From NCBI GenBank assembly GCA_030620115.1, contig JAUXFG010000043.1:1-25768 (forward strand): a DNA stretch of 25,768 nt, written 5' to 3'. How positions within the stretch are numbered: position 1 is the first letter of the stretch; the number at the start of each line of letters is the position of its first letter. Positions 2,659-24,528 of the stretch are shown piece after piece. The DNA is from Candidatus Fermentibacterota bacterium (GTDB lineage Bacteria; JAFGKV01). The notes under the pieces are model-generated. The model made no database searches. It saw nothing but the letters and a program-made list of their open reading frames with translations, and was not told the DNA's origin. Made by a program: the position numbers and the translations under genes.

Positions 2659-3437
2659 GCAGAATTACCTCAGCAGCAATATGGCTCGCGGGTTTGGCTT
2701 TGCTGGTTTTCGGTCTCATAATGATCGACGGACGTGCAACGAATCTGCATCCCTCCGCTGACCCGATGGAGAAATGTGTGGAGTTGAATTCGGCAACTCT
2801 ATCCATGCTATCGGTGGGGAATCGTCCTCTTGTGGCGGACTATCTTTGGATCGATGCCGTACAGTATCTTGGAAAAACGCTCGCCCAACACCATCATGAG
2901 ATCATTGACGGCAAGGTCGTCTGTGTCGGCTTCCCCGCAGAGAAGCTCGATCGTGCGGCCGAAATCTTCTATGAGCTTGCGAATCGTACCGTGGAGGTGG
3001 ATCCACACTTCACCTATGTCCATTATATGGGTGCGCTCTTTCTGAATGATCCACATACTGATCCCGACCGAGCAGTGAACCTATTGCACACAGGCATACT
3101 GAACAACCCCAAAGACTGGCAGCTGAGATTCTGGTTCGCCTATCTCAATCTCATGCTGAAACGGGATCGGGAAACAGCCCTGGAGCATATGAAGCTTGCC
3201 GCTGAAATGGAGGGCTGTCCCCAGTTCGTTTTGGACATCAGGGATAGACTGTTTACTGCGCCGGATCGACAATTGGCCACAATGTTCTTGGCCGGCATGT
3301 TGCAAAAGGCCAGAAGCGAAATGGAGCGAAAGCGGATCAGGCAGCAGATGGATGAGCTTGATTCCGGCGTGGATCTGCGCCAGCTTCTGCATGATCATCA
3401 CGCTCATGACCATGACCATCACCATGGCCATGATTGA
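2655..3437 (+). CDS. Membrane-anchored helical-repeat (TPR-like) protein with His-rich C-terminus
   Basis: Not a named family for me. The start chosen is ATG at 2655, overlapping the permease stop (ATGA); a frame extension to ATG 2616 would overlap the permease by 43 bases and is less likely. At 260 residues, one N-terminal hydrophobic anchor (about 6-24) precedes a soluble region. This holds the motif NRPLVADYLWIDAVQYLG and TPR-like helical pairs (AAEIFYELANRTVEVDPHFTYVHYMGA; AVNLLHTGILNNPKDWQLRFWFAYLN). The last 15 residues contain nine His and four Asp, a likely metal-binding tail. Its coupling to the ABC genes suggests a role in the same export or assembly process on the outer face of the membrane. 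Confidence 0.75.
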   Translation: MSRITSAAIWLAGLALLVFGLIMIDGRATNLHPSADPMEKCVELNSATLSMLSVGNRPLVADYLWIDAVQYLGKTLAQHHHEIIDGKVVCVGFPAEKLDRAAEIFYELANRTVEVDPHFTYVHYMGALFLNDPHTDPDRAVNLLHTGILNNPKDWQLRFWFAYLNLMLKRDRETALEHMKLAAEMEGCPQFVLDIRDRLFTAPDRQLATMFLAGMLQKARSEMERKRIRQQMDELDSGVDLRQLLHDHHAHDHDHHHGHD

Positions 3438-3504
3438 ATCAATAGCTTGACCGCAACCCTGAATGGGATCTCCGAGTAAGCCGCGTTCCCAGGAGTCAGT
3501 ACCG

Positions 3505-4599
3505 ATGTCGAAGACAAGACGCTATGGTTTCATAGACGATATGAGGGGTCTCGTCGTGGTGATGATGGCCTTGGGGCACAGTTCGTACTACTTCCACTCC
3601 ATGTGGAAAAGCCTGGATTATACTGACCCGTTTTTTGACAATCTGTCGCAATTCCTCATCCGATTCCAGGGGTATCTCTGCGCGCCTGGTTTCCTTATCC
3701 TGGCGGGAGCCATGGTGTGGCTCTCGTTTTTCAGGAGTCGTGCCCGGGGGCTCAGTGCGGGCGCCATACGGATGAAATTCATCAAGAGAGGCCTTTTTCT
3801 GATTCTCGTGCAGATGACCTGGGTCAATGCATCGTGGTCGGGCTTTCGATCGTTTCGACTTTTCCACATGGGGATCATTAGCTGCATCGGTATCTCGGTC
3901 ATTCTTCTTTCACTCATCGTGGCATTCCGATGGCAGATGCGGCTGGCCATCGGAATGGCCATCACTGCCGCCCTGCCCGTTCTCATCAACATCCCTTACG
4001 ACATGGACCATACGCTCCAGCAAGCGTTGGCACAGACGTGGGTCGATGCGGGGAAATTCAACGTCTATCCCGTGCTGCCATGGTTCGCATTGGCGGCCTT
4101 GGGATCGGTCATTGGAGAGGCTTGGTTCGTCCGCTGGAAGGAGAAGGCGGCTCTCTATACACTGGCAGTGGCCGTGGCCGCGCTCCTCTTGGGGACCATG
4201 CTGCGTGTGCGCGAAGGCTATGGCACGACGTTTAGCTGTGACGCAGTGGGCACTTATTCATTCTACCTCATTCAGAAGTACCCCCCAAATGTGGTGCACA
4301 ATCTCTGGGCCTTTGGCGGCATAAACCTGTGGATGAGTTTCCTTGTCGGTGTGGGGCCACGCATAGAAGGACTTCTGCGCCCTCTGAAGGTGTATGGCTC
4401 AGTTCCGCTCTTCTTCTACATGCTTCACATTCCGATCTTGGCGATCTTTGCGAAGCGACTTGGTTTCTTCTACCGCCAGGGCGGAACAGGAGCCGTGTTT
4501 CTGGGGTGGATCGGCCTGCTCTTGATCATGTATCCACTCTGTAAGGCCTATGGTGCGTTGCGTTCTCGAACCACGAACCCGATTGTTCGGATGCTGTGA
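3505..4599 (+). CDS. Multi-pass acyltransferase-like membrane protein (HGSNAT/DUF1624-like)
   Basis: A 364-residue polytopic protein beginning RYGFIDDMRGLVVVMMALGHSSYYF, which resembles the start of the HGSNAT-catalytic/DUF1624 family (usual form ID-x-RGL-x-MVLMALDH) and, more distantly, acyltransferase-3. The usual ALDH is ALGH here, but the His is kept. About nine or ten hydrophobic segments follow, including FLILAGAMVWLSFF and FYMLHIPILAIFA; the latter resembles the conserved YxLHxP region of these families. The ATG at 3505 is preferred over the in-frame ATG at 3463 because AGGAG (3491-3495) sits nine bases before it. It probably transfers an acyl group to an envelope glycan or lipid; the acceptor is unknown. 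Confidence 0.7.
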   Translation: MSKTRRYGFIDDMRGLVVVMMALGHSSYYFHSMWKSLDYTDPFFDNLSQFLIRFQGYLCAPGFLILAGAMVWLSFFRSRARGLSAGAIRMKFIKRGLFLILVQMTWVNASWSGFRSFRLFHMGIISCIGISVILLSLIVAFRWQMRLAIGMAITAALPVLINIPYDMDHTLQQALAQTWVDAGKFNVYPVLPWFALAALGSVIGEAWFVRWKEKAALYTLAVAVAALLLGTMLRVREGYGTTFSCDAVGTYSFYLIQKYPPNVVHNLWAFGGINLWMSFLVGVGPRIEGLLRPLKVYGSVPLFFYMLHIPILAIFAKRLGFFYRQGGTGAVFLGWIGLLLIMYPLCKAYGALRSRTTNPIVRML

Positions 4600-4625
4600 G
4601 CTGACGAAACCGAAGCGCGAGTCCG

Positions 4626-4663
4626 TGGTTATCGCGCGTGCTCGTCGACCCGCGAGGTAACCA
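4626..4663 (+). other. Imperfect stem-loop in the gap before the radical SAM gene
   Basis: TGGTTA plus TCGCG (4626-4636) pairs with CGCGA, two bulged G, TAACCA (4651-4663), giving eleven pairs around a 14-base loop. No U-tract follows. It could end the upstream transcript or lie in the leader of the next gene. Confidence 0.4.
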
Positions 4664-4726
4664 TAGAGACGTGATTTCCCTTAGCTATTATTCCGATCGT
4701 TTAACCACGCATTACCGAGGTCTGGC

Positions 4727-5797
4727 ATGAAGATCACTGCACTGCTCCGATTCGCTTGGCGGGCCGGGCGGACATGGTTTGGGAGACTCCCGGCGCCGTA
4801 TAAGCTCACTTTCTCCATTACCTCGCGGTGCAACTTGCGGTGTGCCTCCTGCAATATCTGGAACCAAAAGATAGACGATGAGCTTTCTACCGAGGAGATC
4901 GACAAATTCTTCAGATGCAACCCCGATATCTACTGGCTCGATCTCACAGGTGGCGAGGTGATGTTGCGGCCTGATCTGCCGGATATTCTTGCTTCAGCCG
5001 CACGCCACTTGCCACATCTGTTCCAACTGCACTTTCCATGCAACGGCACGCTTCCCGAGCGCACGGGGCGCATTACGGAGAGCGTGGTGGCGCGGGGAAT
5101 ACCAAAGGTGGTGGTGAGCGTCAGCATGGATGGGCCGCCCGAGCTTCATGATGAACTTCGCGGCAAGCACGGTACGTGGGATCGAGCTGTTGAAACATAC
5201 AAGCGAATCAAGGGAATCTCCGGTGCAGAGGTCTACTTCGGCATGACGGTGACGCATAAGAATCTCTCGAGGATCGTGGAGACCGTGGATGCGCTCTCCG
5301 AGAGTATTCCGAAGTTCGGGCCACGGGATCTTCACTTGAATATCGCCCATGACACCTTCTACTACGGACATCCTGACATCGTGGCTTTGGATCCCCAGGC
5401 GGTGGAACAGCAGCTCGCCCGCTTCAGCCGGTGGCGGGGGGTACCCACCAATCCCGTGCTCCTTCTCGAGTGGCTCTATCAACGGCGCGTTCCCGAGTAT
5501 CTCCGCACGGGGAAAAGCCCCATACGTTGTCAGGCCCTCTCCTCATCATTATTCATCACTTCCCGCGGTGACGTGTATCCATGTACCTCGTACGAACGGA
5601 AACTTGGCAGTCTTCGGGAAACAGACTATGAGCTGTCCCGAATCTGGGATCTGGAATGCTCGAAGGAGCTGGCGTTGGAGATACGGAATGGCCGTTGCCC
5701 CGGTTGCTGGACACCCTGCGAGGCCTACCAGTCCATTATTGCCGCCCTTCCAAGAAAAAATGCGTGGATTAGGGGGGATTTGGGAAAAGGAATGTGA
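4727..5797 (+). CDS. Radical SAM / SPASM-domain protein
   Basis: Cleaves S-adenosylmethionine using a [4Fe-4S] cluster held by C35-x3-C39-x2-C42 (ITSRCNLRCASC). The strand-2 GGE motif LDLTGGEVMLRPDL and the SAM-contact region VVVSVSMDGPPELHDELRG follow the usual radical SAM order. The C-terminal third has SPASM-like cysteines: RCQAL, a Cys in DVYPCTSYERKLGS, and a final C-x2-C-x3-C (C324, C327, C331), so one auxiliary iron-sulfur cluster is likely. The length of 356 fits stand-alone SPASM enzymes. GAGG ends six bases before the ATG. No precursor peptide or obvious partner gene lies beside it, so the substrate is unknown; modification of a peptide, carbohydrate or lipid is possible. Confidence 0.85.
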   Translation: MKITALLRFAWRAGRTWFGRLPAPYKLTFSITSRCNLRCASCNIWNQKIDDELSTEEIDKFFRCNPDIYWLDLTGGEVMLRPDLPDILASAARHLPHLFQLHFPCNGTLPERTGRITESVVARGIPKVVVSVSMDGPPELHDELRGKHGTWDRAVETYKRIKGISGAEVYFGMTVTHKNLSRIVETVDALSESIPKFGPRDLHLNIAHDTFYYGHPDIVALDPQAVEQQLARFSRWRGVPTNPVLLLEWLYQRRVPEYLRTGKSPIRCQALSSSLFITSRGDVYPCTSYERKLGSLRETDYELSRIWDLECSKELALEIRNGRCPGCWTPCEAYQSIIAALPRKNAWIRGDLGKGM

Positions 5798-5885
5798 AAT
5801 CTGGTGATCTGAAATCTAAAAGCTGGGGGAATGGGGAGGAAAGGAAAATACGTGATTGCTGGAATGGGGGAATGCGAATTGAGGA

Positions 5886-5937
5886 ATTGAATCCGCCGGC
5901 TGGCGGAAACATTCAACATTCAACATCCAACGTCGAA
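5886..5937. repeat. Dispersed intergenic repeat, copy B
   Basis: Partner of the repeat at 72-130: 5886-5910 matches 72-96 in 23 of 25 bases, including GCCGGCTGGCGGAAAC. It is followed by tandem CATTCAACATTCAACATCCAAC words ending in GTCGAA. The same GCCGGCTGGCGG motif recurs at 11035-11046 and, with one change, at 6340-6351. Confidence 0.7.
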
Positions 5938-6013
5938 ATCCGAAGAGGGGGAGGAGGGGATGGGGGGAGAAGACAGCGTTCAGCGTTCGGATGACAAAAC
6001 GAGGAGCAGGGAG

Positions 6014-6113
6014 AGATTCTTCGCTCCTTGGAGTCGCTCAGAATGACAGGGGTTTGAGGAAGAAGGAGTGGAAGTGTGTGTCATTCTGAGGGAGAGGAGC
6101 GACTGAAGAATCT
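6014..6113. repeat. Inverted repeat with 35-base arms
   Basis: Arms 6014-6048 and 6079-6113. Each arm begins AGATTCTTC and ends CTCAGAATGACA when read inward, and the outer 9 and inner 12 bases are identical between arms. The central 14 bases differ but use the same words (GCTCC, AGTCG). The loop is 30 bases. Similar TTCTTCGCTC...CAGAATGACA repeats are common in bacterial intergenic DNA; their role is unknown. Confidence 0.75.
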
Positions 6114-6240
6114 GGGCGGGGGAATGCTGGAACGGGAAAAAAGGGAAATGCGGAATGGGGGAATGAGGAATGAAACGACGATGCTGATCGCGGTCTGCAT
6201 GAAGAGAAAGCCTGGGCCCATGAAATACTCAAGCGAGCCG

Positions 6241-6269
6241 TTGACATAGACAGGCGCGTATACTAGCAT
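6241..6269 (+). promoter_or_regulatory. Sigma-70-type promoter candidate for the phoH cluster
   Basis: A perfect -35 TTGACA (6241-6246), a 17-base spacer and TAGCAT (6264-6269, 4/6). The predicted start near 6276 would give a leader of about 195 bases that contains the whole inverted-repeat element at 6284-6443. Confidence 0.45.
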
Positions 6270-6283
6270 CTGTTGGTGTTAGT

Positions 6284-6443
6284 CCGCATTTCTCACCGGC
6301 CATCTGCTGCAGCGTTGCATTTGGCCCTGCCTGCTGTCCGCCAGCTGGCGGACAGAGGGTACGCCTGCGGAGTCCTCGGTCGCAAGCCTTGCAGCCACAG
6401 CCAACTACACCGCTTCGCGGACGAAAACCGATGAGAAGTGCGG
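6284..6443 (+). repeat. Inverted-repeat element or structured leader upstream of phoH
   Basis: The ends CCGCATTTCTCACCGG (6284-6299) and CCGATGAGAAGTGCGG (6428-6443) are inverted repeats matching at 14 of 16 positions and enclose 128 bases. Inside lies a perfect 22-base palindrome at 6334-6355 (core TCCGCCAGCTGGCGGA). There is no reading frame. It could be a miniature mobile element, a dispersed repeat unit, or a folded 5' leader of the phoH message. Confidence 0.55.
6334..6355. repeat. Perfect 22-base palindrome
   Basis: The two 11-base halves are exact reverse complements, centred on CAGCTG. The core CCGCCAGCTGGCGG differs by one base from the CCGCCGGCTGGCGG found in other gaps of this window (5893-5906, 11033-11046). 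Confidence 0.8.
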
Positions 6444-6471
6444 GATAGGCGGCCTACACGGAGGTATGTAT

Positions 6472-7425
6472 TTGAGCGAGCCGGAGTCTGATCAAAGGGA
6501 CGTGTGTATCACTCTCTCTGAGATCGATCCTATCAGATTGTTTGGACAGAATGATCAGTGGCTTCGCCAGGTGCGTCGCAGGACAGATGCGAGGGTGGTG
6601 GCCAGAGGTCATGAGCTTCGCATCATTGGAGAGGCCCAGGAGGTGCAACGACTCGAGACGTTGTTTCTCTCTCTCATCCGGCTGGTGAAGCAGGGGCGTC
6701 GGCTCGAAGCAGATGATTTCGAGATATCCCCAGAGCGACAGAGACATGGCGTCACGGGACAAACCACCGACGCGATCACGACACCGCGCAAGGAGGTGCG
6801 GCCGAAGACTGCGGGTCAGGCTGCCTACCTTGAGGCAATGCAAAGCAAAGATATCGTTTTCTCCATCGGTCCTGCCGGCACGGGGAAGACGTACTTGGCG
6901 GCGGCTATCGCCATTTCCGCGCTTTCCCATCATGAGGTCAGACGGCTCATCCTGGTGAGGCCGGCAGTGGAGGCTGGAGAGAAGCTTGGCTATTTGCCAG
7001 GCGATCTCAGGGAGAAGGTGGACCCATATCTGAGACCACTGTACGATGCCCTCTATGATCTGATGCCGTTGGAACGGGCCAAACGGCTCATGGCCATGGA
7101 GGCCATTGAGATCGTCCCGCTGGCATTCATGCGCGGCCGGACGCTCAATGACTCGTACGTAATCCTCGATGAAGCGCAGAACACCACACCGCTGCAGATG
7201 AAGATGTTCTTGACGCGCCTGGGGAACAAATCAAAGGCGATCATCACGGGGGACATCACTCAGATCGATCTGCCACAAGGACAGATTTCCGGTCTTATCC
7301 ATGTCCGGCAGGTGCTCCGAGACGTCAAAGGAGTTGCGTTCGTGGAGCTTGGGCGAGCCGATGTGGTCAGACACCCACTTGTGCAGAAAATCGTCGAAGC
7401 GTACGAGCGTCTGGAGAATAGCTGA
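6472..7425 (+). CDS. phoH: PhoH-family ATPase (YbeZ-type)
   Basis: Cytosolic ATPase of the PhoH/YbeZ group, which works with YbeY in RNA and ribosome quality control. Motifs (numbered from ATG 6466): an N-terminal KH-like region (about 15-75), Walker A GPAGTGKT (135-142) and Walker B-type ILDEAQNT (233-240), then TGDITQIDLP. The start is revised: GGAGG (6460-6464) is only one base from the ATG at 6466 but seven bases from the in-frame TTG at 6472, so TTG is the better start (317 residues). The gene overlaps the next by one base (TGATG). Order and partners match the phoH-yqfF-ybeY cluster of many bacteria. Confidence 0.92.
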   Translation: MSEPESDQRDVCITLSEIDPIRLFGQNDQWLRQVRRRTDARVVARGHELRIIGEAQEVQRLETLFLSLIRLVKQGRRLEADDFEISPERQRHGVTGQTTDAITTPRKEVRPKTAGQAAYLEAMQSKDIVFSIGPAGTGKTYLAAAIAISALSHHEVRRLILVRPAVEAGEKLGYLPGDLREKVDPYLRPLYDALYDLMPLERAKRLMAMEAIEIVPLAFMRGRTLNDSYVILDEAQNTTPLQMKMFLTRLGNKSKAIITGDITQIDLPQGQISGLIHVRQVLRDVKGVAFVELGRADVVRHPLVQKIVEAYERLENS

Positions 7426-9611
7426 TGCGTGTGATTCCAAAAGGACTCTCCAAACGATTCACCAAAGGCTTTTCTGACCATAAGAGGGCGGCTTCACTTT
7501 CCGGGGCATGGTTGTGTTTCGGGATATTGCTTCTCCTGCTGCGTCCGTCGGCCGAGATGTCGGACTTGCCGTTCTATGAGGCGGGCCAGGTGGCGGATCG
7601 AACCATTCTCGCGCCATTCACGTTTAGCATAAGCAAGGCCAAAGGCGAGATCGAACGTGAACAGGATGAGGCTGCCGCTCGCGTGCCACCGGTCTTTCGG
7701 CGGGTAGCGGAAAATCCTTTGCGTGCCCAGATGAAGCTGCGGATTCTCGAGGATGCCGTTTCATCGTGGCGCAGCCTGCCGGATAGCTCGCTTGAACCCG
7801 AGGAGATGGTGACGCCGGGGTTCACGCTGTCGGCTGCAACCCTGGCGCTGTTGGCGCAGGATTCGACGCGTATCGAGATCTTTCAGGCGACTGAAGATCT
7901 GTTCCCCACATTGTTCGCACGGCATATAGCGACTCGTCTCGACATGATGGGTTCCGCCCCGCATTTTATCATATTGGAAAGTGACTCGGTGGAGACGAGC
8001 GTGGCAGTAGAATCCCTCTCCACGAAGGAGCATGTCCGTGTTGATCTCAGCCACATGGTCAGAGTTCGCCATCCTGACCACGAGTTATTGGCAAGGGCTG
8101 TGTATGAGCTGTCGGCGCCCATGGTGGCGCCGACGCTCGTTCTCGACCAAGTGGAGACTGCCCGCCGACAAGAGGAGTCTGCGAAAGCAATCTCCCCGAT
8201 AAAAGGGAAGCTCCTTGCTGGGGAGATCGTGGTAGAGGCGCACACAAGGGTCACTGAGCAGGATGCTGAGGAGTTGCGGAGCTTGCGAGAGGCGTATGCT
8301 GCCCGCGCCATGGCGGGGCACGATGTCGGGAGTTTTCTTCCTGTGCTTGGCCATCTCCTCTGGATTGGCTTGTTCCTTGGCTTGGTAGCCGGATTCTTGG
8401 TGGCCATGGCGCCGACCGCACTGCGCTCCCCGTCGGATACTACGCTGATGATACTCGTTCTGGCCATCGGCGTGGTGGCAAGCTATGGGATACGATGGCC
8501 ACTAGAGGGTCCTGCTGGACTGGTCCCCCTGGCCATAGTCGCAATGCTGGCCACGATCTTCTTTGACGAAGGCGTGGGTTTTGGCCTCACCATACTCGCA
8601 TTTCTCATGGCTGGCAGTCATTTTCGATTCGATGTCGCGGGATTGGTGCCTCCCCTGGTTGGAGCGTTTGCCGCGGTTTTCCGCTTGAGGCAATTGCGAA
8701 AGAGACGTGATTTCTATCTCACCGCACTGTGGATCTTTGCCGCCGCATCCCTCGCCAGTCTCCCCATGGGGCTGCTTTCATCATCCGATCTGCGAACCCT
8801 TCTGAGGATGATAGGCTACAGTGCCGTGAATGCCGCGGTGAGCAGCATCGTCGTGATGGTTGCTCTTCCGGTGCTGGAATCACTCTTTCACCGTGCGACT
8901 GATCTGCGGCTGCTCGAGCTTTCAGACATGAACCATGTCCTTCTTCGCCAGCTGGCGCTCAACGCCCCCGGCACCTATCAGCACAGCATGATCGTGGGCA
9001 ACCTAGCCGAAGCCGCATGTGAGACGATTCGCGCCAATGCCCTTTTGGCGCGGGTGGGGTCCTACTATCATGACGTCGGCAAGATCACCAAGCCCGAGTA
9101 TTTTGCGGAAAACCAGTCTTTCAACGAGAATCCCCACGACAAGCTTTCGCCGAAGATGAGTGCCTTGGTGATTGCTTCACACGTAAAGGAGGGGCTGAAG
9201 CTTGCAGTCCAGGAACGGCTCCCTCCTGTGATCGTGGATTTTGTTGCACAGCATCACGGGACGACTTCCATTTCGTTCTTCTATAAGAAGATGAAGGAGC
9301 AGAATCCTGATGCGCGGATCGATCCGGGGGATTTTTCCTACCCAGGCCCGAAACCGGCAACTCGCGAGACAGCAGTGGTCATGCTGGCTGACGCCTGTGA
9401 AGGTGCGGTACGCTCGCTCCAAGAGCCCACGGCCACACGGATTCGGCAAGTCGTGGAGAAAGTGATACACGAACGATTGATTGGGGGGCAGCTCGATCAG
9501 AGCAATCTGACTTTCCGAGATCTGGAAAAGATCAGAGAGAGCTTCGTTCCGCTCCTCGTGTCGGTACATCACCACAGAGTGAAATACCCTGAGGGCAAAA
9601 AGGAGGAATAG
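7425..9611 (+). CDS. pgpH: 7TM-HD family phosphodiesterase (PgpH type, probable c-di-AMP hydrolase)
   Basis: Members of this family (Listeria PgpH, Bacillus YqfF) cleave cyclic di-AMP to pApA. The 728-residue protein has an N-terminal membrane segment (about 23-40), a large extracytoplasmic 7TMR-HDED domain (about 45-300), a cluster of about seven transmembrane helices (about 301-480), and a cytosolic HD domain (about 500-700). The metal-binding residues are visible: H520 in TYQHSMIVGNLAE and H549-D550 in YYHDVGKITKP, followed by ASHVKEG and VAQHHGTT, the further His positions of HDIG proteins. It starts on the last base of phoH. Whether this organism makes c-di-AMP cannot be seen here, so the substrate is inferred from the family. 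Confidence 0.88.
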   Translation: MRVIPKGLSKRFTKGFSDHKRAASLSGAWLCFGILLLLLRPSAEMSDLPFYEAGQVADRTILAPFTFSISKAKGEIEREQDEAAARVPPVFRRVAENPLRAQMKLRILEDAVSSWRSLPDSSLEPEEMVTPGFTLSAATLALLAQDSTRIEIFQATEDLFPTLFARHIATRLDMMGSAPHFIILESDSVETSVAVESLSTKEHVRVDLSHMVRVRHPDHELLARAVYELSAPMVAPTLVLDQVETARRQEESAKAISPIKGKLLAGEIVVEAHTRVTEQDAEELRSLREAYAARAMAGHDVGSFLPVLGHLLWIGLFLGLVAGFLVAMAPTALRSPSDTTLMILVLAIGVVASYGIRWPLEGPAGLVPLAIVAMLATIFFDEGVGFGLTILAFLMAGSHFRFDVAGLVPPLVGAFAAVFRLRQLRKRRDFYLTALWIFAAASLASLPMGLLSSSDLRTLLRMIGYSAVNAAVSSIVVMVALPVLESLFHRATDLRLLELSDMNHVLLRQLALNAPGTYQHSMIVGNLAEAACETIRANALLARVGSYYHDVGKITKPEYFAENQSFNENPHDKLSPKMSALVIASHVKEGLKLAVQERLPPVIVDFVAQHHGTTSISFFYKKMKEQNPDARIDPGDFSYPGPKPATRETAVVMLADACEGAVRSLQEPTATRIRQVVEKVIHERLIGGQLDQSNLTFRDLEKIRESFVPLLVSVHHHRVKYPEGKKEE

Positions 9612-9649
9612 AGTTTGGATCTTCTGATGATCTGTCTTAGGATCTATCC

Positions 9650-10138
9650 GTGTATCCCACAGTGTTCCGATGGGGATTCCGGCACTTCTTGATCTACGTA
9701 AACGGGGATTGTGAGGCCATGGGGTTATCCGTCGAACGGCTCATCCCATGGATCGAGGCGCTTCTTGCCGCGGAGGGCAGCCCCGCTGGCGAAATCAGCC
9801 TGACGTTCCTCGACCGAAATCAGATGGTCTTTTTGAATGAGCAGTATACGGATCGGAAAGGGACCACTGATGTGCTTGCGTTCTCACAGCAAGAGGGCGC
9901 ATTCCCCGCCCCCGATCCTGATTTGCTTGGCGATGTGATTGTGGATGTCAGCTGCGTGCAAGAACAGGCATATGAGTATGGTACGGATCCCGCGGAGGAG
10001 CTTCTTAGAGTAGTGGCGCACGGGGTTCTTCATCTATTGGGGTATGATCACAAGACATCCGAGGAGGAAAAAATCATGAAGGATGCAGAGGAGTCGCACC
10101 TACGAGCCTATGCCAAGAAAGCGAGACCACAGGAATGA
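9650..10138 (+). CDS. ybeY: Endoribonuclease / rRNA maturation factor YbeY
   Basis: Zinc-dependent RNase needed for 16S rRNA 3'-end maturation and ribosome quality control. The zinc motif H124-x3-H128-x5-H134 (HGVLHLLGYDH) is intact, and the substrate-side motif TDVLAFSQ plus GDVIVDV follow the family. The frame opens at GTG 9650 (162 residues). Homology-like sequence begins at FLIYVNGD, so an in-frame TTG at 9689 is a possible alternative start. Purine-rich AGGAT lies just upstream of the GTG. The stop overlaps the next gene (ATGA). It follows phoH and pgpH as in many genomes, and PhoH/YbeZ is its usual partner. Confidence 0.93.
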   Translation: MYPTVFRWGFRHFLIYVNGDCEAMGLSVERLIPWIEALLAAEGSPAGEISLTFLDRNQMVFLNEQYTDRKGTTDVLAFSQQEGAFPAPDPDLLGDVIVDVSCVQEQAYEYGTDPAEELLRVVAHGVLHLLGYDHKTSEEEKIMKDAEESHLRAYAKKARPQE

Positions 10139-11010
10139 GGCTCATTGATCGTTCTATGCTCGCGGTGCTTCTTCCTATTGTGAAGCTGATCCAGAGAATC
10201 GAGAGCTCTTTTGAGGATCGGCTGAGAGCCGTTTCTAGGCGTGATCAGTCGGCGGCGAAGGCACTCAAGGCGTTGAGGGTGGCGACTTCGGAGGAGGGGA
10301 ATCTCGAGGAAGACGAGCGGAAGATGATAGATCATATCTACGAGCTCTCCGAGACGCTGGCCAGGGAGGTCATGGTCCCCCGAGTGGATATGGTGTGCTC
10401 CGATGTGACTAATGGCCTGGATGAGGTGGTGCGTTTGATCCAGGAACATGGACATACGCGGATCCCCGTGTACAAGGAGTCAGTGGATTACATCGAAGGC
10501 ATTGTGTATGCCAAAGATGTGCTCATTTCGCAGAGCGGGGACGAAACCAAGCGCTCGGTGCTTGATCTCGCTCGCGAGCCATACTTCATACCCGAGACGA
10601 AGAAAATCGACGAGCTCCTTCGCCACCTGAGACGGAAAAAAGTTCATATGGCCATTGTGGTGGACGAGTATGGAGGCACGGCAGGCTTGGTGACGCTGGA
10701 GGATATTCTTGAAGAGATCGTGGGCGAGATCCAAGATGAGTATGATGAAGAGGAACCGGAGTACGAGAAGCTGGGGCCGGATCATTTTCGGGTCGACGGG
10801 AAGATAAACCTTGATGATCTGAACGAACTGATGGAAACCGATTTGCCAACGGATTCAGTTGATACTGTTGGCGGCTTCATCTATGATCTCCTTGGCCGTA
10901 TCCCTCACGAAGGCGAAGCGGTGGAATGGAATGACCTCCACTTCGTGGTGGAACAGGTCGAGGGGCAACGCATTGCAAAGGTCATTGTCACCCGTGTTGC
11001 TCCCCAGTAG
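10135..11010 (+). CDS. corC: CBS-domain protein of the CorC/HlyC family
   Basis: A soluble member of the hemolysin/CorC group, associated with magnesium and cobalt efflux or membrane transporter regulation. Its 291 residues contain an N-terminal helical part (1-70), the conserved REVMVPRVDM (77-86) opening the first CBS domain, a second CBS domain with VVDEYGGTAGLVTLEDILEEIVGEIQDEYD (174-203), and a C-terminal CorC_HlyC domain (about 215-288, with RVDGKINLDDLNE and TVGGFIYDLLGRIPHEG). The DUF21 transmembrane domain of larger relatives is absent, as in E. coli CorC. It is translationally coupled to ybeY. The nearby mgtE makes a magnesium-homeostasis role plausible. Confidence 0.88.
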   Translation: MRLIDRSMLAVLLPIVKLIQRIESSFEDRLRAVSRRDQSAAKALKALRVATSEEGNLEEDERKMIDHIYELSETLAREVMVPRVDMVCSDVTNGLDEVVRLIQEHGHTRIPVYKESVDYIEGIVYAKDVLISQSGDETKRSVLDLAREPYFIPETKKIDELLRHLRRKKVHMAIVVDEYGGTAGLVTLEDILEEIVGEIQDEYDEEEPEYEKLGPDHFRVDGKINLDDLNELMETDLPTDSVDTVGGFIYDLLGRIPHEGEAVEWNDLHFVVEQVEGQRIAKVIVTRVAPQ

Positions 11011-11031
11011 CGATCTGGCTTCGCTACGGTA

Positions 11032-11102
11032 CCCGCCGGCTGGCGGGCGGGCGCAATTGGGGCACTGGAATGTCCGTCTTCGTCGGTCGGCCAGCCGGCG
11101 GG
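11032..11102. repeat. GC-rich inverted repeat in the corC-mgtE gap
   Basis: CCCGCCGGCTGG (11032-11043) and CCAGCCGGCGGG (11091-11102) are exact reverse complements 47 bases apart, and each side is flanked by a related CTACGG/CTACGC word. The 230-base gap (11011-11240) holds no gene. The motif belongs to the same GCCGGCTGGCGG family seen at 5893-5906. Confidence 0.65.
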
Positions 11103-11240
11103 CTACGCCGAGACGGGATGGAAAGATGGATTGCCGGGTTGGAAAGGATAGAGATTCCTCTCTCTGTCACGTGGCGATTTTCCCCATGATTGAACATAGC
11201 GGTCCATTCCTACGCATGTGCGCAGTGAAGGAGAGGATCG

Positions 11241-12626
11241 GTGACTGATAAGAAGCGTTTGACCACCAAGTTCATCAGAGCAGATACCTACCGCATCGCA
11301 CGCGCCGTACGATTCCTGCTCGAGCGGGGAAGCATCATACGGCTGAAACGATTGCTTTCCCGTTTCCACCCCGCGGATACGGCGGATGTCCTCGAGCACC
11401 TTGACGACGATGAAATGCATGAAGTGTTCAACCTGCTCGACAGGGAGTCCGCTCCTGATGTACTGGAAGAGGTGGAAGATCGAGACCAGGCAACCCTGGC
11501 CGAAGGCCTGAGCGATGAGTTTCTGGCTTCTCTCGTGGAGGAGATGGCCAGCGATGACGCGACTGATCTGATCCAGCTCCTGAGTCCCGAGCGGGCAGGC
11601 CGTGTTCTTGACCTCATTGAGCCCCATGATCAAGCGGAATTGAAACGTCTTCTGGTTTTTGCGCCCCAGACTGCAGGCGCAATCATGGCAGCCGAGTTCG
11701 CCGCAGTGGTGGAGGATGCATTGGTTGCGGAGGCCATTGAGGCAGTCCGAGGCATGGCTGATGAACTGGAAGATATCCACTATGTCTATGTGGTGGACAA
11801 CGAGAAGAGGCTCCGGGGTGTGTTGCCGCTGCATAAGCTCCTCCTGTCGCCGCCGGGGACACCGGTGTCGAGCATTATGATTACCGATGTGGTGACCGTC
11901 CCCCCGGAGCTGGATCAGGAGGAAGTTGCCCTCTTGGCCCAGCGGTACGATCTGGAGAGGATTCCGGTGGTGGACACCACGGGCACTCTGTTGGGTCGCA
12001 TCACCGTCACCGATATCGTAGATGTGGTAAGTGAGGAAGTTGAGGAAGATCTCTCCCGTCTTGCCGGTATTGCCGAGGAAGAGATGGGTGAGCGATCAGT
12101 GACGAGGATATCCCGGCTTCGATTGCCTTGGCTGGTGGTGGGGCTAGGAGGAGGCCTGGCATCCGCGTTCCTGATCAGCCGGTTTCAAACCAGTCTCGAA
12201 GAGCTCATCATCCTTGTGTTTTTTGTGCCCGTGATCACCAATATGGGGGGCAATGTCGGCATCCAAAGCTCGGCCATCGCAATCCGGGGTTTGGCCACGG
12301 GGGAAATCAGCGCGAGCCACATGCTCCCCAGGCTCTGGACGGAGCTGCGTGTGGGGGTGCTGAACGGTTTGGCCACGGGATTGCTCTTGGCGGTTCTGGC
12401 GGGGTTCTGGCAGGGATCTCGCATCGCCCTTGTCCTTGGTCTTTCCATGCTCACCGTGCATATGGTGGCCACGTGCACCGGGACTTTTGTTCCCATGCTG
12501 CTCAAAAGGATGGGTTTTGACCCTGCATTGGCTGCCGGACCGTTCATCACCACCATGAATGATGTTTTTGACCTCTTCGTTTATCTTGGTATAGCCAGCC
12601 TTTTCATGGCACACTGGCGTTCTTGA
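11241..12626 (+). CDS. mgtE: Magnesium transporter MgtE
   Basis: Mg2+-gated magnesium channel of the inner membrane. The 461-residue protein has the full layout: an N-terminal superhelical domain (about 15-135, with the HPADTADVLEHLDDDE repeat region), two CBS domains (about 140-260), a connecting helix, and five transmembrane segments (about 290-458). The pore motif NMGGNVGIQSSAIAIRGLATGEI is intact. The start is GTG at 11241 with GGAGAGG a few bases upstream. It lies 230 bases after corC, so it may have its own promoter, though none is obvious. Its end abuts recO. Confidence 0.94.
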   Translation: MTDKKRLTTKFIRADTYRIARAVRFLLERGSIIRLKRLLSRFHPADTADVLEHLDDDEMHEVFNLLDRESAPDVLEEVEDRDQATLAEGLSDEFLASLVEEMASDDATDLIQLLSPERAGRVLDLIEPHDQAELKRLLVFAPQTAGAIMAAEFAAVVEDALVAEAIEAVRGMADELEDIHYVYVVDNEKRLRGVLPLHKLLLSPPGTPVSSIMITDVVTVPPELDQEEVALLAQRYDLERIPVVDTTGTLLGRITVTDIVDVVSEEVEEDLSRLAGIAEEEMGERSVTRISRLRLPWLVVGLGGGLASAFLISRFQTSLEELIILVFFVPVITNMGGNVGIQSSAIAIRGLATGEISASHMLPRLWTELRVGVLNGLATGLLLAVLAGFWQGSRIALVLGLSMLTVHMVATCTGTFVPMLLKRMGFDPALAAGPFITTMNDVFDLFVYLGIASLFMAHWRS

Positions 12627-13506: not shown

Positions 13507-13581
13507 CCTAAGGTAAGACACAGGGAGGGAAACGGGATTTGTGCGTGATATCCAGGATCCTTCCCTTCATTCGGAGGCACT

Positions 13582-14763
13582 ATGGACCTTTTTGAGAAAT
13601 GCCACTCGTTTACTCAAGCAAGAGAGGTGATGGCCCTGGGGATCTATCCCTACTTCCGCTCCATCGATCCGTTCCACGGCTCGATCGCCAAGTTTGAGGG
13701 GAGAGAAGTCATCATGATCGGGTCGAACAACTACCTCGGGCTCACGCAGCACCCACGTGTCATATCCGCGGCCAGGGATGCGCTTGAACACTACGGGAGC
13801 AGTTGCACCGGATCCAGATTCCTCAACGGCACCATTGAACTGCATCACGAGTTGGAGCACCGGCTCGCGCGATTCCTTGGCAAGGAGGCCTGTCTTGTTT
13901 TCAGCACGGGGTTCCAGGCGAATCTCGGCGTCATCTCCTCGCTGGTGGACAGGAATGAATTGATCATCACCGACAGGGAAGATCACGCCAGCATCGTTGA
14001 TGGCTGCAGGCTGAGCTTCGGGAAGAACCCGAAGTACCGCCACGGTGACATGGACGAGCTTGAGGAGATTCTCAGGAAGAATGCGGAGCGACCGAAACTT
14101 GTGGTGGTGGATGGCGTGTTCAGCATGGGAGGGGACCTTGCTAACCTGCCTGGCCTGGTGAAGCTGTGCAAGGCATATGATGCACGGCTCATGGTGGATG
14201 ATGCCCATGGGATCGGCGTCATGGGCGCCCATGGGAGAGGGACCGCGGAGCACTTCGGGCTCACGGATGAAGTGGACCTTTTACTGGGAACATTCAGCAA
14301 GTCCATGGCGTCCCTTGGTGGTTTTGTTGCCGGCGATGATTATGTGATCCACTATGTCAAACACCACGCCAGGAGTCTCATCTTTTCTGCGAGCATGCCG
14401 CCGGCATCGGTGGCCGCCACTATTGCGGCCCTGGAGATTCTGGAAGAGGAGCCGGAGCGCGTCCAGCGGCTTCGTGCCATCGCGGACCGGATGCGCGAAG
14501 GGTTTCGGGCACTGGGCTTTGATACTATGCAGAGTCAGACCCCTATCATCCCCATCAAGATTGGGTTGGGAATGATGAGGACATTCCAGATCTGGAAGAT
14601 CCTGCTGAATGAGGGTGTGTTCACCAATCCGGTCATTCCACCGGCGGTGCCGCCGGGAGACGAGCTGCTCAGAACCAGCTATATGGCCACTCACGAAGAT
14701 GAACAACTTGATCGTGTGCTAGAGGTATTCGCCCGAGTAGGGAAGGCAGAAGGCATCATATGA
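13582..14763 (+). CDS. spt: Serine palmitoyltransferase-type PLP enzyme (alpha-oxoamine synthase)
   Basis: Condenses an amino acid with an acyl thioester with loss of CO2; as Spt it joins serine and palmitoyl-CoA/ACP to 3-ketosphinganine, the first sphingolipid step. Seen in 393 residues: NNYLGL near the N-terminus, GSSCTGSRFLNGT, DHASIVDGCRLS, DGVFSMGGDLANL, VDDAHGIGVMG, and the PLP lysine K240 in TFSKSMASLGGF. This lysine region resembles serine palmitoyltransferases more than biotin (BioF) or threonine (Kbl) enzymes. No biotin or threonine genes are adjacent; instead an N-acyltransferase and an SDR follow, which supports the Spt role. GGAGG is four bases before the ATG. Confidence in the fold is very high, in the substrate moderate. 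Confidence 0.82.
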   Translation: MDLFEKCHSFTQAREVMALGIYPYFRSIDPFHGSIAKFEGREVIMIGSNNYLGLTQHPRVISAARDALEHYGSSCTGSRFLNGTIELHHELEHRLARFLGKEACLVFSTGFQANLGVISSLVDRNELIITDREDHASIVDGCRLSFGKNPKYRHGDMDELEEILRKNAERPKLVVVDGVFSMGGDLANLPGLVKLCKAYDARLMVDDAHGIGVMGAHGRGTAEHFGLTDEVDLLLGTFSKSMASLGGFVAGDDYVIHYVKHHARSLIFSASMPPASVAATIAALEILEEEPERVQRLRAIADRMREGFRALGFDTMQSQTPIIPIKIGLGMMRTFQIWKILLNEGVFTNPVIPPAVPPGDELLRTSYMATHEDEQLDRVLEVFARVGKAEGII

Positions 14764-14789
14764 GTAACTCCTTTCGTTACCAGATTTGA

Positions 14790-15905
14790 ATGATGCAGAT
14801 CAGGCAAGTCCATTCGCGCAAAGAGCTGAAGACCTTCCAGCGGCTGCCGTGGAAAATATACCGCCATAAGCCCCTTTGGGTGCCGCCACTGCTCAGTCAG
14901 GAACGTGAACTTCTCTGGCCAGGGAAGCATCCTTTCCATGATCATGCCCTTACGGCCCTCTTTCTCGCCTTTGACGGGGCCGAGCCCGTGGGAAGGATAG
15001 GCGCATGCCTGAACGAGCAGCACAATGTGTACCATGGCGAGCATGTGGGGTTCTGGGGCTTCTTCGAATGCATCGACGACCGGCACGTTGCCCGGGAGCT
15101 TTTGCGAGCCGCGGGGGCATGGCTCAAGAAGCAAGGCCTTGATTCTATGCGTGGACCATTCAACTGGTCCACCAATGAGACATGCGGTCTCCTGGTGGAT
15201 GGTTTCGATTCACCACCCCGCATCATGATGCCGTACAATCCTCCCTACTATGGAGCTCTGATGGAAGCCGCCGGGCTGGCAAAGACCAAGGATCTTGTGA
15301 CCTTCGAGCTCCTTGCATCCGCCCCGGCCCCCCCCCGGATGGAGCGGATCGCCAATCGTGCCAGGAAACGCTCCGGCATCACAATACGCGCCATTGACAA
15401 GAAAGGGCTCAAGAAGGAAGTACACGTCATAAAGGAGATCTACAACGCAGCATGGAGCAAGAACTGGGGATTTGTGCCCATGACCTCTCGGGAGGTCGAT
15501 TTTATGGCGCACGAGCTCGAATCGATCATCGATCCGCGACTCCTGCTGTTCGCTGAGGTCGATGGGGATCCCGCAGGTTTCTGCATGACCTTGCCCGATG
15601 TCAACGAGGTGCTCAAACATCTCAATGGCCGGCTCTTCCCACTTGGGTTTCTCAAGGCCCTTTGGTGGTCCAGGAGAATTTCATTCACACGGCTCCTTAC
15701 ATTAGGGATCAAGGAACAGTATCGACGGAAGGGAATCGAGGTCATACTCATCATCGAAACCCTGCTTCGTGGCCGCAAGGCCGGCTATGTGGGCGGCGAG
15801 CTTGGCTGGGTTCTCGAGGATAATCATTTGATGATACGGGACATAGAGGCCATGGGGGCAAAGCAGAACAAGACCTACCGGATCTACGAATCCTCCACCG
15901 CGTAA
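14790..15905 (+). CDS. bcerS: GNAT-fold N-acyltransferase, probable bacterial ceramide synthase
   Basis: A 371-residue protein with two GNAT-like halves. Conserved-looking blocks include the N-terminal FQRLPWKIYRHKPLWVPPL, the central RGPFNWSTNETCGLLVDGFDSPPRIMMPYNPPYY (about 127-160), IYNAAWSKNWGFVPMT and GIKEQYRRKGIEVILI, the pyrophosphate-binding-like loop. This architecture matches the family containing the Caulobacter bacterial ceramide synthase (bCerS), which N-acylates the sphingoid base; the placement between Spt and an SDR supports it. It starts at tandem ATGs (14790/14793) with little Shine-Dalgarno, 26 bases after spt, probably coupled. A run of nine C (15328-15336) lies in codons near residue 180. 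A generic GNAT of other function is the alternative. Confidence 0.65.
   Translation: MMQIRQVHSRKELKTFQRLPWKIYRHKPLWVPPLLSQERELLWPGKHPFHDHALTALFLAFDGAEPVGRIGACLNEQHNVYHGEHVGFWGFFECIDDRHVARELLRAAGAWLKKQGLDSMRGPFNWSTNETCGLLVDGFDSPPRIMMPYNPPYYGALMEAAGLAKTKDLVTFELLASAPAPPRMERIANRARKRSGITIRAIDKKGLKKEVHVIKEIYNAAWSKNWGFVPMTSREVDFMAHELESIIDPRLLLFAEVDGDPAGFCMTLPDVNEVLKHLNGRLFPLGFLKALWWSRRISFTRLLTLGIKEQYRRKGIEVILIIETLLRGRKAGYVGGELGWVLEDNHLMIRDIEAMGAKQNKTYRIYESSTA
15328..15336. repeat. C9 homopolymer within the acyltransferase gene
   Basis: Nine consecutive C spanning the codons for Ala-Pro-Pro-Arg near residues 180-183 of the GNAT-type acyltransferase. It is in frame as given. Such tracts are prone to slippage and to sequencing error. 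Confidence 0.9.
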
Positions 15906-15907
15906 TC

Positions 15908-16891
15908 ATGCCAACGGATCTCGTGACCGGAGCCAGTGGCTTCATTGGCTCCCACCTGACGGATACGCTCCTGAGCGCAGGCCGCGGTGTCCGTATACTC
16001 CTCCGTCCGACTTCCTCCCTGAAGTGGCTGCCGGAGGAAGCCATCGAAGTGGTAAGAACGGGTTCATGGTCCCCCGAAGCCATTCGACCAGTGGTGGAGG
16101 CCGTTGACACGGTGTACCACGTTGCCGGAACCACACATGCTCGCAATAAGAGGGAATTCTTCGAATTTCACGTTGATGGTACGAGAAGTCTCCTCGAAGC
16201 ATGCAGCGAAGCGACACATCCGCCCAGAAGAGTAGTAATATTCTCAAGCCTGGCCGCCGCAGGGCCGAGTAGAACAGGCCGGCTCCTCACTGAAGAGGAC
16301 GAGCCCCAACCGGTCTCGTGGTATGGGGAAAGCAAACTCGAGCAGGAACGGATTGCCCACTCCTATGCCGAGGCGCTGAGTCTCGTCATCATTCGCCCTC
16401 CGGCGGTGTACGGCCCGAGAGACAGGGATTTGTTCCATGTATTCAAGATGGCGAAGAAGGGTTACTACTTCGCCCTTGCCGGCGGGTCCGGGATGCAGAG
16501 CATGACCTATGTGGACGACATTGTCCGGGGCGCCATACTGGCGGGAAGCAACGACGTGGTCTCGGGTCGAGTATACTATATTGCATCCCACGAGATCACC
16601 ACATGGGCTGGTCTGGCATCGATCCTTTCCTTATTGCTGGGAGTCGGGCAGAGGAGGATCCCGGTTCCTGCTTCAATGCTGCCGTTGGTGGGGTTCCTCG
16701 CGCAGCATCTCTCGCGATTCCGTGGCGTACGCGTTCCCCTGGATAGGAACAAGGCCATGGAGGGGCGCTATCCACATTGGATCTGCTCGCCTGCCCGGGC
16801 CCGGGAGGAACTATGCTTCCGCGCGGTTATGGGGCTCCCATCAGGGGTGGAGAAAACCCTGGCCTGGTATCGCGAGCAAGGGTGGCTCTGA
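15908..16891 (+). CDS. cerR: Extended SDR NAD(P)-dependent reductase, probable ceramide reductase
   Basis: A Rossmann-fold short-chain dehydrogenase of 327 residues. Visible motifs: nucleotide-binding TGASGFIGSHL (7-17), VYHVAGTTHA, VIFSSLAAAG supplying the catalytic Ser, the active-site Y-x3-K in WYGESKLEQE, then RPPAVYGPRD and SMTYVDDIVRGAI, typical of extended epimerase-like SDRs. In Caulobacter a protein of this type (CerR) reduces the 3-keto group during ceramide synthesis, after N-acylation. Here it starts two bases after the acyltransferase stop, and no other cofactor or sugar gene is nearby, so the ceramide role is inferred from context. A nucleotide-sugar epimerase or 3-beta-hydroxysteroid-type dehydrogenase is the alternative. 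Confidence 0.68.
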   Translation: MPTDLVTGASGFIGSHLTDTLLSAGRGVRILLRPTSSLKWLPEEAIEVVRTGSWSPEAIRPVVEAVDTVYHVAGTTHARNKREFFEFHVDGTRSLLEACSEATHPPRRVVIFSSLAAAGPSRTGRLLTEEDEPQPVSWYGESKLEQERIAHSYAEALSLVIIRPPAVYGPRDRDLFHVFKMAKKGYYFALAGGSGMQSMTYVDDIVRGAILAGSNDVVSGRVYYIASHEITTWAGLASILSLLLGVGQRRIPVPASMLPLVGFLAQHLSRFRGVRVPLDRNKAMEGRYPHWICSPARAREELCFRAVMGLPSGVEKTLAWYREQGWL

Positions 16892-20934: not shown

Positions 20935-23900
20935 ATGCGTGTTTGGTCCCCTATCGCAGTCATCGCAGCGCTTTTTTTGCTTGTCCATGCCGTATCTGCG
21001 GAATGGGTTCCGGTATCTTCCGGCCTACAGAAGTCCGGGGAGACCCATCTCCTGGAAGATTCCGGGGCTGCCATCCGCGTCTCGTTCACTTTTGCAGGGT
21101 ATGACGCCGAGACAGTGATGGCAGATGGCATAGAATGTATCCGCATCGGCGTTCCCGGCATGGCCCCGACTTTGGTGCAAGGCGAACCCGAGCTTCCCAT
21201 CTGGACGAGAAGCGTGATCGTAGCGGATAAGGGGCACGTATCGCTCCGGGTCATCTCGGAAGAATGGGAAGAGGTTTTGTCTCGTCCCGTGCTTCCCTCA
21301 AAGGGAAACCTTCCAAGATCGATAAATCCCCGCAGCGTGCCTTTCGAGTTCGGCGCCACGTATGAGACGGATGAGTGGTCCCCATCTGAGGCGGCGATGC
21401 TCTCCGATCCCTTCATTTTGCGGGACTTTCGGGGAGTGACCGTGGTGGTGCATCCGATCCGGTACAACGGCGCCCGAGGGATGCTGAGGATCTGTCGTGA
21501 GATCACGGTCGAGATTCGGACGGGGGGAACTGGGGGCTTACATGAAAAGAGCCGAGCCCGGAGTAAGCTCTCCAGAGAATTCTCTTGCATGTATGAGCAG
21601 ATGTTCCTGAATCACATCCGGGATGCGCATCCCATCTCCGAGCATGCGGGAAGGATGCTTATCATCACCGCAGACCAGTTCTACGATGATATGGCGAGTC
21701 TTGTGACCTGGAAAGTGGAGAAGGGGATCGATACCAAGCTTGTGAAGTACTCCGAGATCGGAGGAACGGGGGCTTCGGCGGTCAAGAGCTGCATCCAGGA
21801 CGAGTATGATGGGCCTGGCGTGACCTTCGTGCTTCTCGTGGGGGACAAGGAGCACATACCCACGTTCTCGTTCTCGGACGGGGAGGCCGACCCCATGTAC
21901 TCACTGCTTGAGGGTGGCGATGTTTATCCCGATGCTTTTATCTCCCGTTTTAGTGTGCAGAGCAGCGGGGACGTTCAGACCATGGGGATACGGTCGATCG
22001 ACTACGAGCTTTCACCCACAGTCGCCACCGACTGGTATCATAAGGCGACCGGCATTGCGAGCAGCGAGGGGAGCCCTACTGACTGGCAGTGGATGGACGG
22101 ATTCAGAGACAAGATCTTGGCCTACTACTATACTGAGATGGATCAGATATATGACCCGGGAGCTTCCTCATCAGAGGTCACCAGTGCGCTCAATAACGGG
22201 AGAAGCCTGGTTCTTTACATGGGACACGGTTCAACGACGGCCTGGGGCACCACGGGATTCTCAGTCTCCAATATCAACGCACTGACCAATGATTCAATGT
22301 TGCCGGTAGTGAGCTGTGTCGCCTGCTTCAATGGGGATTTCAGCTACAATAACTGTTTTGGCGAGGCCTGGCTGAGGGCAACTCATGATGGCCAGCCAAC
22401 CGGCGCCATTGCATCCTATGCGTCGAGTATCGGCCAATCGTGGGTGCCTCCCCAGTATGGCCAGCAAGGCCTTGTCGACAGCTTGGTCAATGACCGATAC
22501 AATACGGTTGGCGGGCTCCTGTTCATGGGCTCCGTCGCCATGCTGGAACACTATGCGGGCGGCTATGAAGCCCAGGATATATTCAACACATGGATCATCT
22601 TTGGCGACTGTTCCGTCCAGATGAGAACGGACGCGGCGGTGAGCATGCCCGCAAGCTACCCGGCCACGGTGCCGGTGGGAACGCAAGCCGTTGATATCTC
22701 CATCCCCGGCGTATCCGGCGCGCTGGCGGCATTCTCTCAGAATGGAGAGCTTCTTGGTTCGGGCTATACTGATGCAGCGGGGAACGTCCACGTCACGCTC
22801 AATGAGGCACCGACTGTTCCCGGCTCCATGAAGCTAACCATCACGGCATATAACAGAATCCCCATCGTCGAGGATATCCTGATCATTGCCCCGGATGGCC
22901 CCTATGTAATCTACGCGGACAACACAATCCTCGGAGACGGACAGGCCGATGTGGGCGACGAGATCTCCCTGGACGTGACCTTGGAGAATGTAGGCACCGA
23001 GCCGGCATTTGCGGTGCAGGGGACGCTCTCCACGGTCGAAGTGGAGATTCAGATGGGAGACTCGGTGCAGAGCTATGGGGATATCGATGCAGGCAACTCT
23101 GCAGTATCGCAGAGCCCCTACACGTTTGAGATCGGCTCTTTGGCTGACCAGACATCAGTGCCATTTGCGCTCTCTATCGGATCAGGAGATTCCCTCTGGC
23201 TTGGTGCATTCAATATCACGATCCATGCGCCAATCCTTTCCCAGAATGGGTGGACAATGGATGATGCCGCAGGAAATAGCAACGGCCAGGCCGACCCGGG
23301 CGAGACGGTGGGACTCACCGTGGCAGTACACAACAGCGGATCAGGCATAGCCTCTGATGCGGAGCTCACCTTGGATGACTCGGACCCCTATGTCGCCATC
23401 TCCGGACCGGCGACGCAGGATCTCGGTCAGATTCCCGCAGGTGGTCAGGTGTACAGCCCGAGTTTCACCCTGAGTTTTGATGAATCATGCCCCGAGGCGT
23501 ACGCATCCCAGATACCGCTGACATTCGTTTCCAATGGAGGGGCCTACACGGCAAGTGGCAGTCTCACGCTCGTGGTAGGCCAACGAGAGCTTCTCTACGT
23601 GGATAGCGACAATGAGAATACCGAGACACGAATCACTGCGGCTCTGGATGCATGGGGTAGATCATATGTGCGGTGGAACACCTATGAGCCCGGGAATGCC
23701 GTGGTTCCCCTCGATACGCTTCGATCCTACCGCATGGTGCTCTGGGCCTCGGGGGATCAGAATAATTCCAGTATCACCGCCGATAACCGGATCAACCTGG
23801 CTTCCTACCTTGATGAGGGCGGGGCACTGCTTTTCTCCGGGGAGAACTACCTCTCGGCCTATGCGGCCGATGACTTCACCTCAGACTACCTCCACGTGGC

Positions 23901-24528
23901 CTCACATACCATCAGCATAAGTGGCTCACAGGTTGTGGGTGAAGCGGGAGATCCTATCAGCGATGGTATGTCCGTGACGTTGAGCTATCCGGCCGGGCTG
24001 TCTCAGTATCCCGATAGGATCAATCCGGATGCAGAGGCGGCCGTGGTCTTCCGCATGCAGGAAAACAGCTTTCCAGTGGTGATTCGCTACCCGGCGAGCG
24101 GATCCGCGGCGTATCGCATGCTCTTCTTTGGCGTACCATTGGAGGCATTTCCTTCGGGCCGCGGGCGCAATGACATTGAAACCGTAGTGTCAAATTGCCT
24201 GAGCTGGCTTTCAGGTGGCGGCGATATCATCGCGCCCACTATTCCGGGAGACGCGGCATTTGCTTCAGACGGGACTCTCAGCTGGAGCGCATCTACCGAC
24301 AACGTGGGCGTTGATCATTACTGTATCTACCGCAGCTCCTCTGCCCATTTCAACGTGCAAGGCATGGCGCCTGTACGTACCAGCACCGGCACCAGCGAAT
24401 TATTTGGTGGGAGCGTTGGCGATCCCGGCACCAACTACTACTTCAGGGTGGCGGCCAAGGATGCGGCAGGAAACGAGTCGCCGCCTTCGTCCACCGTGGG
24501 TGAGCACGACTACGCGACGGAACGATAG
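20935..24528 (+). CDS. Secreted gingipain-type cysteine peptidase (family C25) with FN3 C-terminus
   Basis: A 1197-residue exported endopeptidase. A signal peptide (1-22, VSA/EW) is followed by a C25 propeptide (about 25-215) and the caspase-like C25 domain (about 235-570). The catalytic dyad is intact: H431 in LYMGHGST and C464 in SCVACFNGDF, 33 residues apart, the same spacing as His211/Cys244 of gingipain RgpB. Then come two Ig-like/CARDB-like repeats (about 655-765 and 770-882, each opening GxGQADxGE/DxxxLxV), a Rossmann-like GATase/ThuA-type domain (about 885-1095), and an FN3 domain (about 1100-1190). No type IX secretion C-terminal domain is recognised. AGGAGG is eight bases before the ATG. 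It probably degrades extracellular protein or processes surface proteins. Confidence 0.88.
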   Translation: MRVWSPIAVIAALFLLVHAVSAEWVPVSSGLQKSGETHLLEDSGAAIRVSFTFAGYDAETVMADGIECIRIGVPGMAPTLVQGEPELPIWTRSVIVADKGHVSLRVISEEWEEVLSRPVLPSKGNLPRSINPRSVPFEFGATYETDEWSPSEAAMLSDPFILRDFRGVTVVVHPIRYNGARGMLRICREITVEIRTGGTGGLHEKSRARSKLSREFSCMYEQMFLNHIRDAHPISEHAGRMLIITADQFYDDMASLVTWKVEKGIDTKLVKYSEIGGTGASAVKSCIQDEYDGPGVTFVLLVGDKEHIPTFSFSDGEADPMYSLLEGGDVYPDAFISRFSVQSSGDVQTMGIRSIDYELSPTVATDWYHKATGIASSEGSPTDWQWMDGFRDKILAYYYTEMDQIYDPGASSSEVTSALNNGRSLVLYMGHGSTTAWGTTGFSVSNINALTNDSMLPVVSCVACFNGDFSYNNCFGEAWLRATHDGQPTGAIASYASSIGQSWVPPQYGQQGLVDSLVNDRYNTVGGLLFMGSVAMLEHYAGGYEAQDIFNTWIIFGDCSVQMRTDAAVSMPASYPATVPVGTQAVDISIPGVSGALAAFSQNGELLGSGYTDAAGNVHVTLNEAPTVPGSMKLTITAYNRIPIVEDILIIAPDGPYVIYADNTILGDGQADVGDEISLDVTLENVGTEPAFAVQGTLSTVEVEIQMGDSVQSYGDIDAGNSAVSQSPYTFEIGSLADQTSVPFALSIGSGDSLWLGAFNITIHAPILSQNGWTMDDAAGNSNGQADPGETVGLTVAVHNSGSGIASDAELTLDDSDPYVAISGPATQDLGQIPAGGQVYSPSFTLSFDESCPEAYASQIPLTFVSNGGAYTASGSLTLVVGQRELLYVDSDNENTETRITAALDAWGRSYVRWNTYEPGNAVVPLDTLRSYRMVLWASGDQNNSSITADNRINLASYLDEGGALLFSGENYLSAYAADDFTSDYLHVASHTISISGSQVVGEAGDPISDGMSVTLSYPAGLSQYPDRINPDAEAAVVFRMQENSFPVVIRYPASGSAAYRMLFFGVPLEAFPSGRGRNDIETVVSNCLSWLSGGGDIIAPTIPGDAAFASDGTLSWSASTDNVGVDHYCIYRSSSAHFNVQGMAPVRTSTGTSELFGGSVGDPGTNYYFRVAAKDAAGNESPPSSTVGEHDYATER

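Follow-up and report, generated by a model that had tools for sequence, protein, structure and literature searches.

An spt-bcerS-cerR operon predicted to make dihydroceramide in Candidatus Fermentibacterota

The bacterial route to ceramides is already known from Caulobacter crescentus, in which spt, acpR, cerR and aasR (CC_1162-1165) together with CC_1154, known as bCerS or CerS, include the same three core families that we describe here in a member of Candidatus Fermentibacterota, as traced through their E. coli and Sphingomonas counterparts (PMC9386255, PMC11324152). In contrast to Caulobacter, the present locus consists of three adjacent genes only, with neither a dedicated acyl carrier protein (ACP) nor an acyl-ACP synthetase, and with no adjacent Lpt or phosphoglycerate head-group genes. 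The E. coli cluster yghO-aasR-epi-acpR-spt (ECD_02850-02854 in BL21) carries homologues of all three genes but differs in that its Spt, of the AcpR-using type, lies on a separate long branch, an ACP and an acyl-ACP synthetase are included and the acyltransferase gene is divergent. The same spt-bcerS-cerR order on a single strand is found on plasmids of Rubrobacter radiotolerans and Streptomyces sp. NBC_01001 and in Myxococcota and Acidobacteriota, although the Spt proteins of these units are only 47-58% identical to the one studied here. The Rubrobacter, Streptomyces and Acidobacteriota units are similarly compact, whereas in those of Myxococcota roughly 440 bases separate spt from bcerS, and in some of them cerR is followed by another bcerS, as at L058, L061 and L062, where this second copy forms a clade of its own (support 100). 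Spt, bCerS and CerR genes, often co-located in uncultured bacteria as they are here, have also been reported with predicted sphingolipids for metagenome-assembled genomes of 38 Black Sea phyla (PMC11334938). The pathway has thus been predicted before for dozens of bacterial phyla and the operon is an ordinary example of it, by which a small phylum joins the bacteria expected to make sphingolipids.

The window, by which we mean the whole 25,768-nucleotide stretch analysed, carries the three genes as open frames on the forward strand. The first, spt (13582..14763, 393 aa), encodes a PLP-dependent α-oxoamine synthase predicted to be a serine palmitoyltransferase; the second, bcerS (14790..15905, 371 aa), a predicted ceramide synthase-type N-acyltransferase of tandem GNAT form; and the third, cerR (15908..16891, 327 aa), an extended SDR predicted to be of the ceramide (3-oxo) reductase type. 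The tight packing described in an earlier note on this DNA, with gaps of 26 bases between spt and bcerS and 2 bases between bcerS and cerR, is borne out by these frames and coordinates, and the motifs that it named are present, namely the PLP lysine (K240) of the first protein, GPFNWSTNE at 122 and GFDSPP at 138 of the second and YGESK at 139 of the third. A putative ribosome-binding site, GGAGG, can be read 5' of spt (13574..13578, forward strand), and a nine-codon leader, MSNSFRYQI followed by a stop, lies in frame with bcerS at 14760..14789 on the same strand, its start overlapping the spt stop within ATGA and its TGA directly preceding the acyltransferase start, an arrangement that may possibly couple the translation of the two genes. 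Comparison of three genomes finds this leader in the window alone; in both siblings the acyltransferase begins at the ATGA itself, by which it overlaps spt at the first junction, and the second junction (bcerS-cerR) is TGACCATG. Taken together, the junctions of the window and its siblings point to a single translationally coupled operon. Scans for promoters and terminators gave no more matches than in shuffled sequence. The trio is preceded by a run of housekeeping genes, the last of which is recO by eye, and the next two genes on its 3' side lie on the opposite strand, the second encoding an adenosine deaminase-family protein. Further along the window (20935-24528) is the gene for a secreted-looking C25 (gingipain-family) peptidase of 1197 aa with a propeptide.

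Within the phylum, sampled as the window genome and two siblings, the order of the trio and its near-zero gaps are kept in all three genomes, with identities to the two siblings of 76 and 76% for spt, 61 and 64% for the acyltransferase and 56 and 54% for the reductase, and because both other genomes share the order the trio is not a product of chance. We also scanned genome contigs with the acyltransferase sequence alone and took the best 80 loci, which come from Myxococcota, Planctomycetota, Gemmatimonadota, Zixiibacteriota, Acidobacteriota, Ignavibacteriota and other phyla; among named contigs no relative was close, the best standing at 53%. In the 80 loci spt adjoins the acyltransferase gene in at least 59 and all three genes occur together in at least 43, both figures being lower bounds because some contigs end early, and given that the loci were picked without using adjacency, this linkage constitutes independent evidence. 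Clusters with all three genes span 2.9-5.7 kb, so that the description of the operon in the earlier note as compact is correct (3.3 kb) but compactness is usual rather than distinctive. When these loci are counted with the window, the siblings and the plasmid records, the arrangements are a divergent cerR followed by spt-bcerS (n = 18), spt-bcerS-cerR (n = 13, including the window, the siblings, Rubrobacter and Streptomyces), cerR-spt-bcerS (n = 13) and cerR-bcerS-spt (n = 5). Since gene order varies between lineages it cannot be read as the order of steps, and the earlier suggestion that the two match carries no weight, the step order itself being disputed, with localisation work in Caulobacter favouring acylation first and other work reduction first (PMC11087976, PMC11324152).

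Together these data suggest that the three genes very probably form one operon making dihydroceramide, a reading that is well supported by family membership and gene neighbourhood, with the product and the individual reactions predicted from sequence. In this scheme Spt would yield 3-oxo-sphinganine, the tandem GNAT bCerS would add a second acyl chain to the amino group and CerR, as an NAD(P)-dependent extended SDR, would reduce the 3-oxo group, the last two steps in whichever of the disputed orders applies.

Assignment of the first gene as a serine palmitoyltransferase is well supported by its family and its neighbourhood, as the earlier note had it, and the enzyme is predicted to condense serine with a fatty acyl thioester. 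In a ranking of PDB sequences its best solved relative is the Sphingobacterium (S. multivorum) SPT 3a2b, at 428 bits compared with 259 for Kbl and 206 for BioF, and 200 of the 385 residues aligned with this enzyme are identical (52%). Asn49, Gly77, Ser78, His135, Asp206, His209, Thr237, Lys240 and Arg364 occupy SPT active-site positions in the alignment, and the features of the reference enzymes are kept, including the PLP lysine within GTFSKS, His138, Asp210, His213, Asn52 and the C-terminal active-site arginine (PMC10196870, PMC9304779). The contacts to PLP and serine named in PMC10196870 are also retained, except for the replacement of Ala79 by threonine and of Met271 by isoleucine, the latter a contact made via the main chain (PMC10196870). 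These residues bear on whether a related lipid might be built from another amino acid by the same three-step scheme, for example a 1-deoxyceramide from alanine or glycine or a sulfonolipid from cysteate. SPT does use alanine and glycine weakly (PMC10196870), euxinic water holds abundant 1-deoxy and sulfono-ceramides alongside Spt-like genes (PMC11334938), and Ala79 of the S. multivorum enzyme is in water-mediated contact with the side chain of the substrate. However, the threonine found at this position is shared with 17 linked loci and with the E. coli SPT, a type for which activity has been reported (PMC9386255), and we dropped the substrate argument from this residue (Thr76) because the E. 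coli enzyme has it too. Asn49, whose contact with the serine hydroxyl is mediated by water, is retained, and the Lys281 that distinguishes the cysteate acyltransferase SulA corresponds to Ala270 at the position computed from the PLP-lysine offset, on which basis identity with SulA was rejected. We therefore regard an amino acid other than serine as an improbable substrate for this operon.

The acyltransferase shares 34.8% identity with E. coli YghO across 99% of its length, and YghO is the counterpart of Caulobacter CC_1154 (PMC9386255), which places it by sequence in full-length homology with bCerS, the link to Caulobacter running through the E. coli protein. A tree of 101 rows joins it in one family with YghO and the counterpart from Sphingomonas, not with unrelated GNATs. 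A curated family search returned nothing beyond a weak Acetyltransf_1 match, and a PDB sequence search with the protein found no significant match and no bCerS structure. An AlphaFold2 model built from 68 sequences (mean pLDDT 94.3) resembles tandem GNAT structures with Z of 21-24 over 278-303 residues and N-myristoyltransferases, whose substrate is a long acyl-CoA, with Z of about 16. The model thus supports a tandem GNAT fold, which together with the YghO homology and the linkage to spt upholds the earlier description of a GNAT-fold acyltransferase of bCerS type, one that would N-acylate the sphingoid base.

The genome encodes two further paralogues of this acyltransferase, on contigs C212 and C146, which are 43% and 38% identical to the operon copy, and either could in principle be the true ceramide synthase, with the operon enzyme acting on a non-sphingoid substrate. 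This is very improbable, since each of the three genomes from the phylum keeps the operon copy next to spt and the pairing recurs in other phyla, whereas the C212 copy groups (support 98) with copies at L083, L089 and L104 that have no spt nearby and the one on C146 is long-branched. A division of function within the family, in which the operon copy serves ceramide synthesis and the C212 paralogue N-acylates another amine and passes the lipid to its exporter, is a doubtful proposal in its own right; if true, it would amount to a second, undescribed lipid acylation-and-export system. The C212 locus (1913-11705) has in a row genes for a TetR-like regulator, an MMPL/RND exporter, the bCerS paralogue, a LolA-like protein and a porin-like protein, with a lysyl-PG synthase-type protein further on, and the paralogue overlaps the exporter gene by 4 bases. 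At L083 and L089 a TetR-like gene lies directly 5' of the spt-less copy.

In a tree of 77 oxoamine synthase rows, the first protein and the known Spts lie within a set of 69 supported at 97, outside which are Kbl, BioF, the genome's own Kbl-like paralogue on contig C8 (support 100 with E. coli Kbl) and the long-branched oxoamine synthases of Acidisoma and Thioclava. There is next to no chance that the first gene encodes BioF or Kbl and has its neighbours incidentally, an identity rejected by this tree and contradicted by both the PDB ranking and the conservation of the trio in many phyla, its high scores against the bioF and Kbl models arising because the families are related. Neither of the two groupings that the earlier note gave as grounds for refutation, of this protein with Kbl or BioF or of the acyltransferase with GNATs unrelated to bCerS, was found, and its reading of a bacterial ceramide operon is supported. 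Scores against the NCBIfam Spt models fall below the curated cut-offs (NF047600, 539.8/640; NF047599, 393.5/500; NF047603, 321/670), which we read as a position outside the lineages concerned because each of the three models is named for a single lineage. A lone Spt-like oxoamine synthase, 55% identical, is encoded on a Priestia megaterium plasmid (L046, 6001-7215), and no Priestia plasmid is among the acyltransferase matches listed.

In the same oxoamine synthase tree the Spts of Proteobacteria are set apart on a long branch of their own (support 100), and these enzymes use a dedicated AcpR, whereas those of Bacteroidetes use acyl-CoA (PMC11324152). The genome, which is 98% complete, has a single PF00550 ACP, which by its sequence is of the housekeeping kind and which lies on another contig (C53), and three AMP-binding proteins, none of them on the contig of the window, and neither an ACP nor AasR was matched within the window. 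A tblastn search with ACP that covered the window together with the 80 loci and the reference loci gave matches only at those of E. coli, Sphingomonas and Nonomuraea, and a dedicated ACP and acyl-ACP synthetase accompanying spt, as in the proteobacterial AcpR-dependent system, were not found in the window. Given the lack of a dedicated ACP and an Spt that falls outside the proteobacterial type, the likely donor is acyl-CoA, or else the single housekeeping acyl-ACP. The lack of a dedicated ACP remarked on in the earlier note holds genome-wide but is nothing special, being usual outside Proteobacteria. A minimal, ACP-free set of three genes would lend itself to reconstitution and to deciding whether acylation or reduction comes first, the point in dispute.

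The N-terminus of the third protein leads directly into the Rossmann motif, with no signal peptide seen by eye; Caulobacter CerR is periplasmic (PMC11087976). The protein is an extended SDR that matches PF01370, with TGASGFIG present in addition to YGESK, and is only 26% identical to E. coli Epi. In the reductase tree it groups with Spt-linked reductases, including the Epi proteins of E. coli and Sphingomonas, and apart from the other SDRs of its own genome, with moderate support along the CerR path (some branches at 86-88), a placement that agrees with the extended SDR reductase first proposed and suggests a CerR-type, NAD(P)-dependent enzyme that would act on the 3-oxo group.
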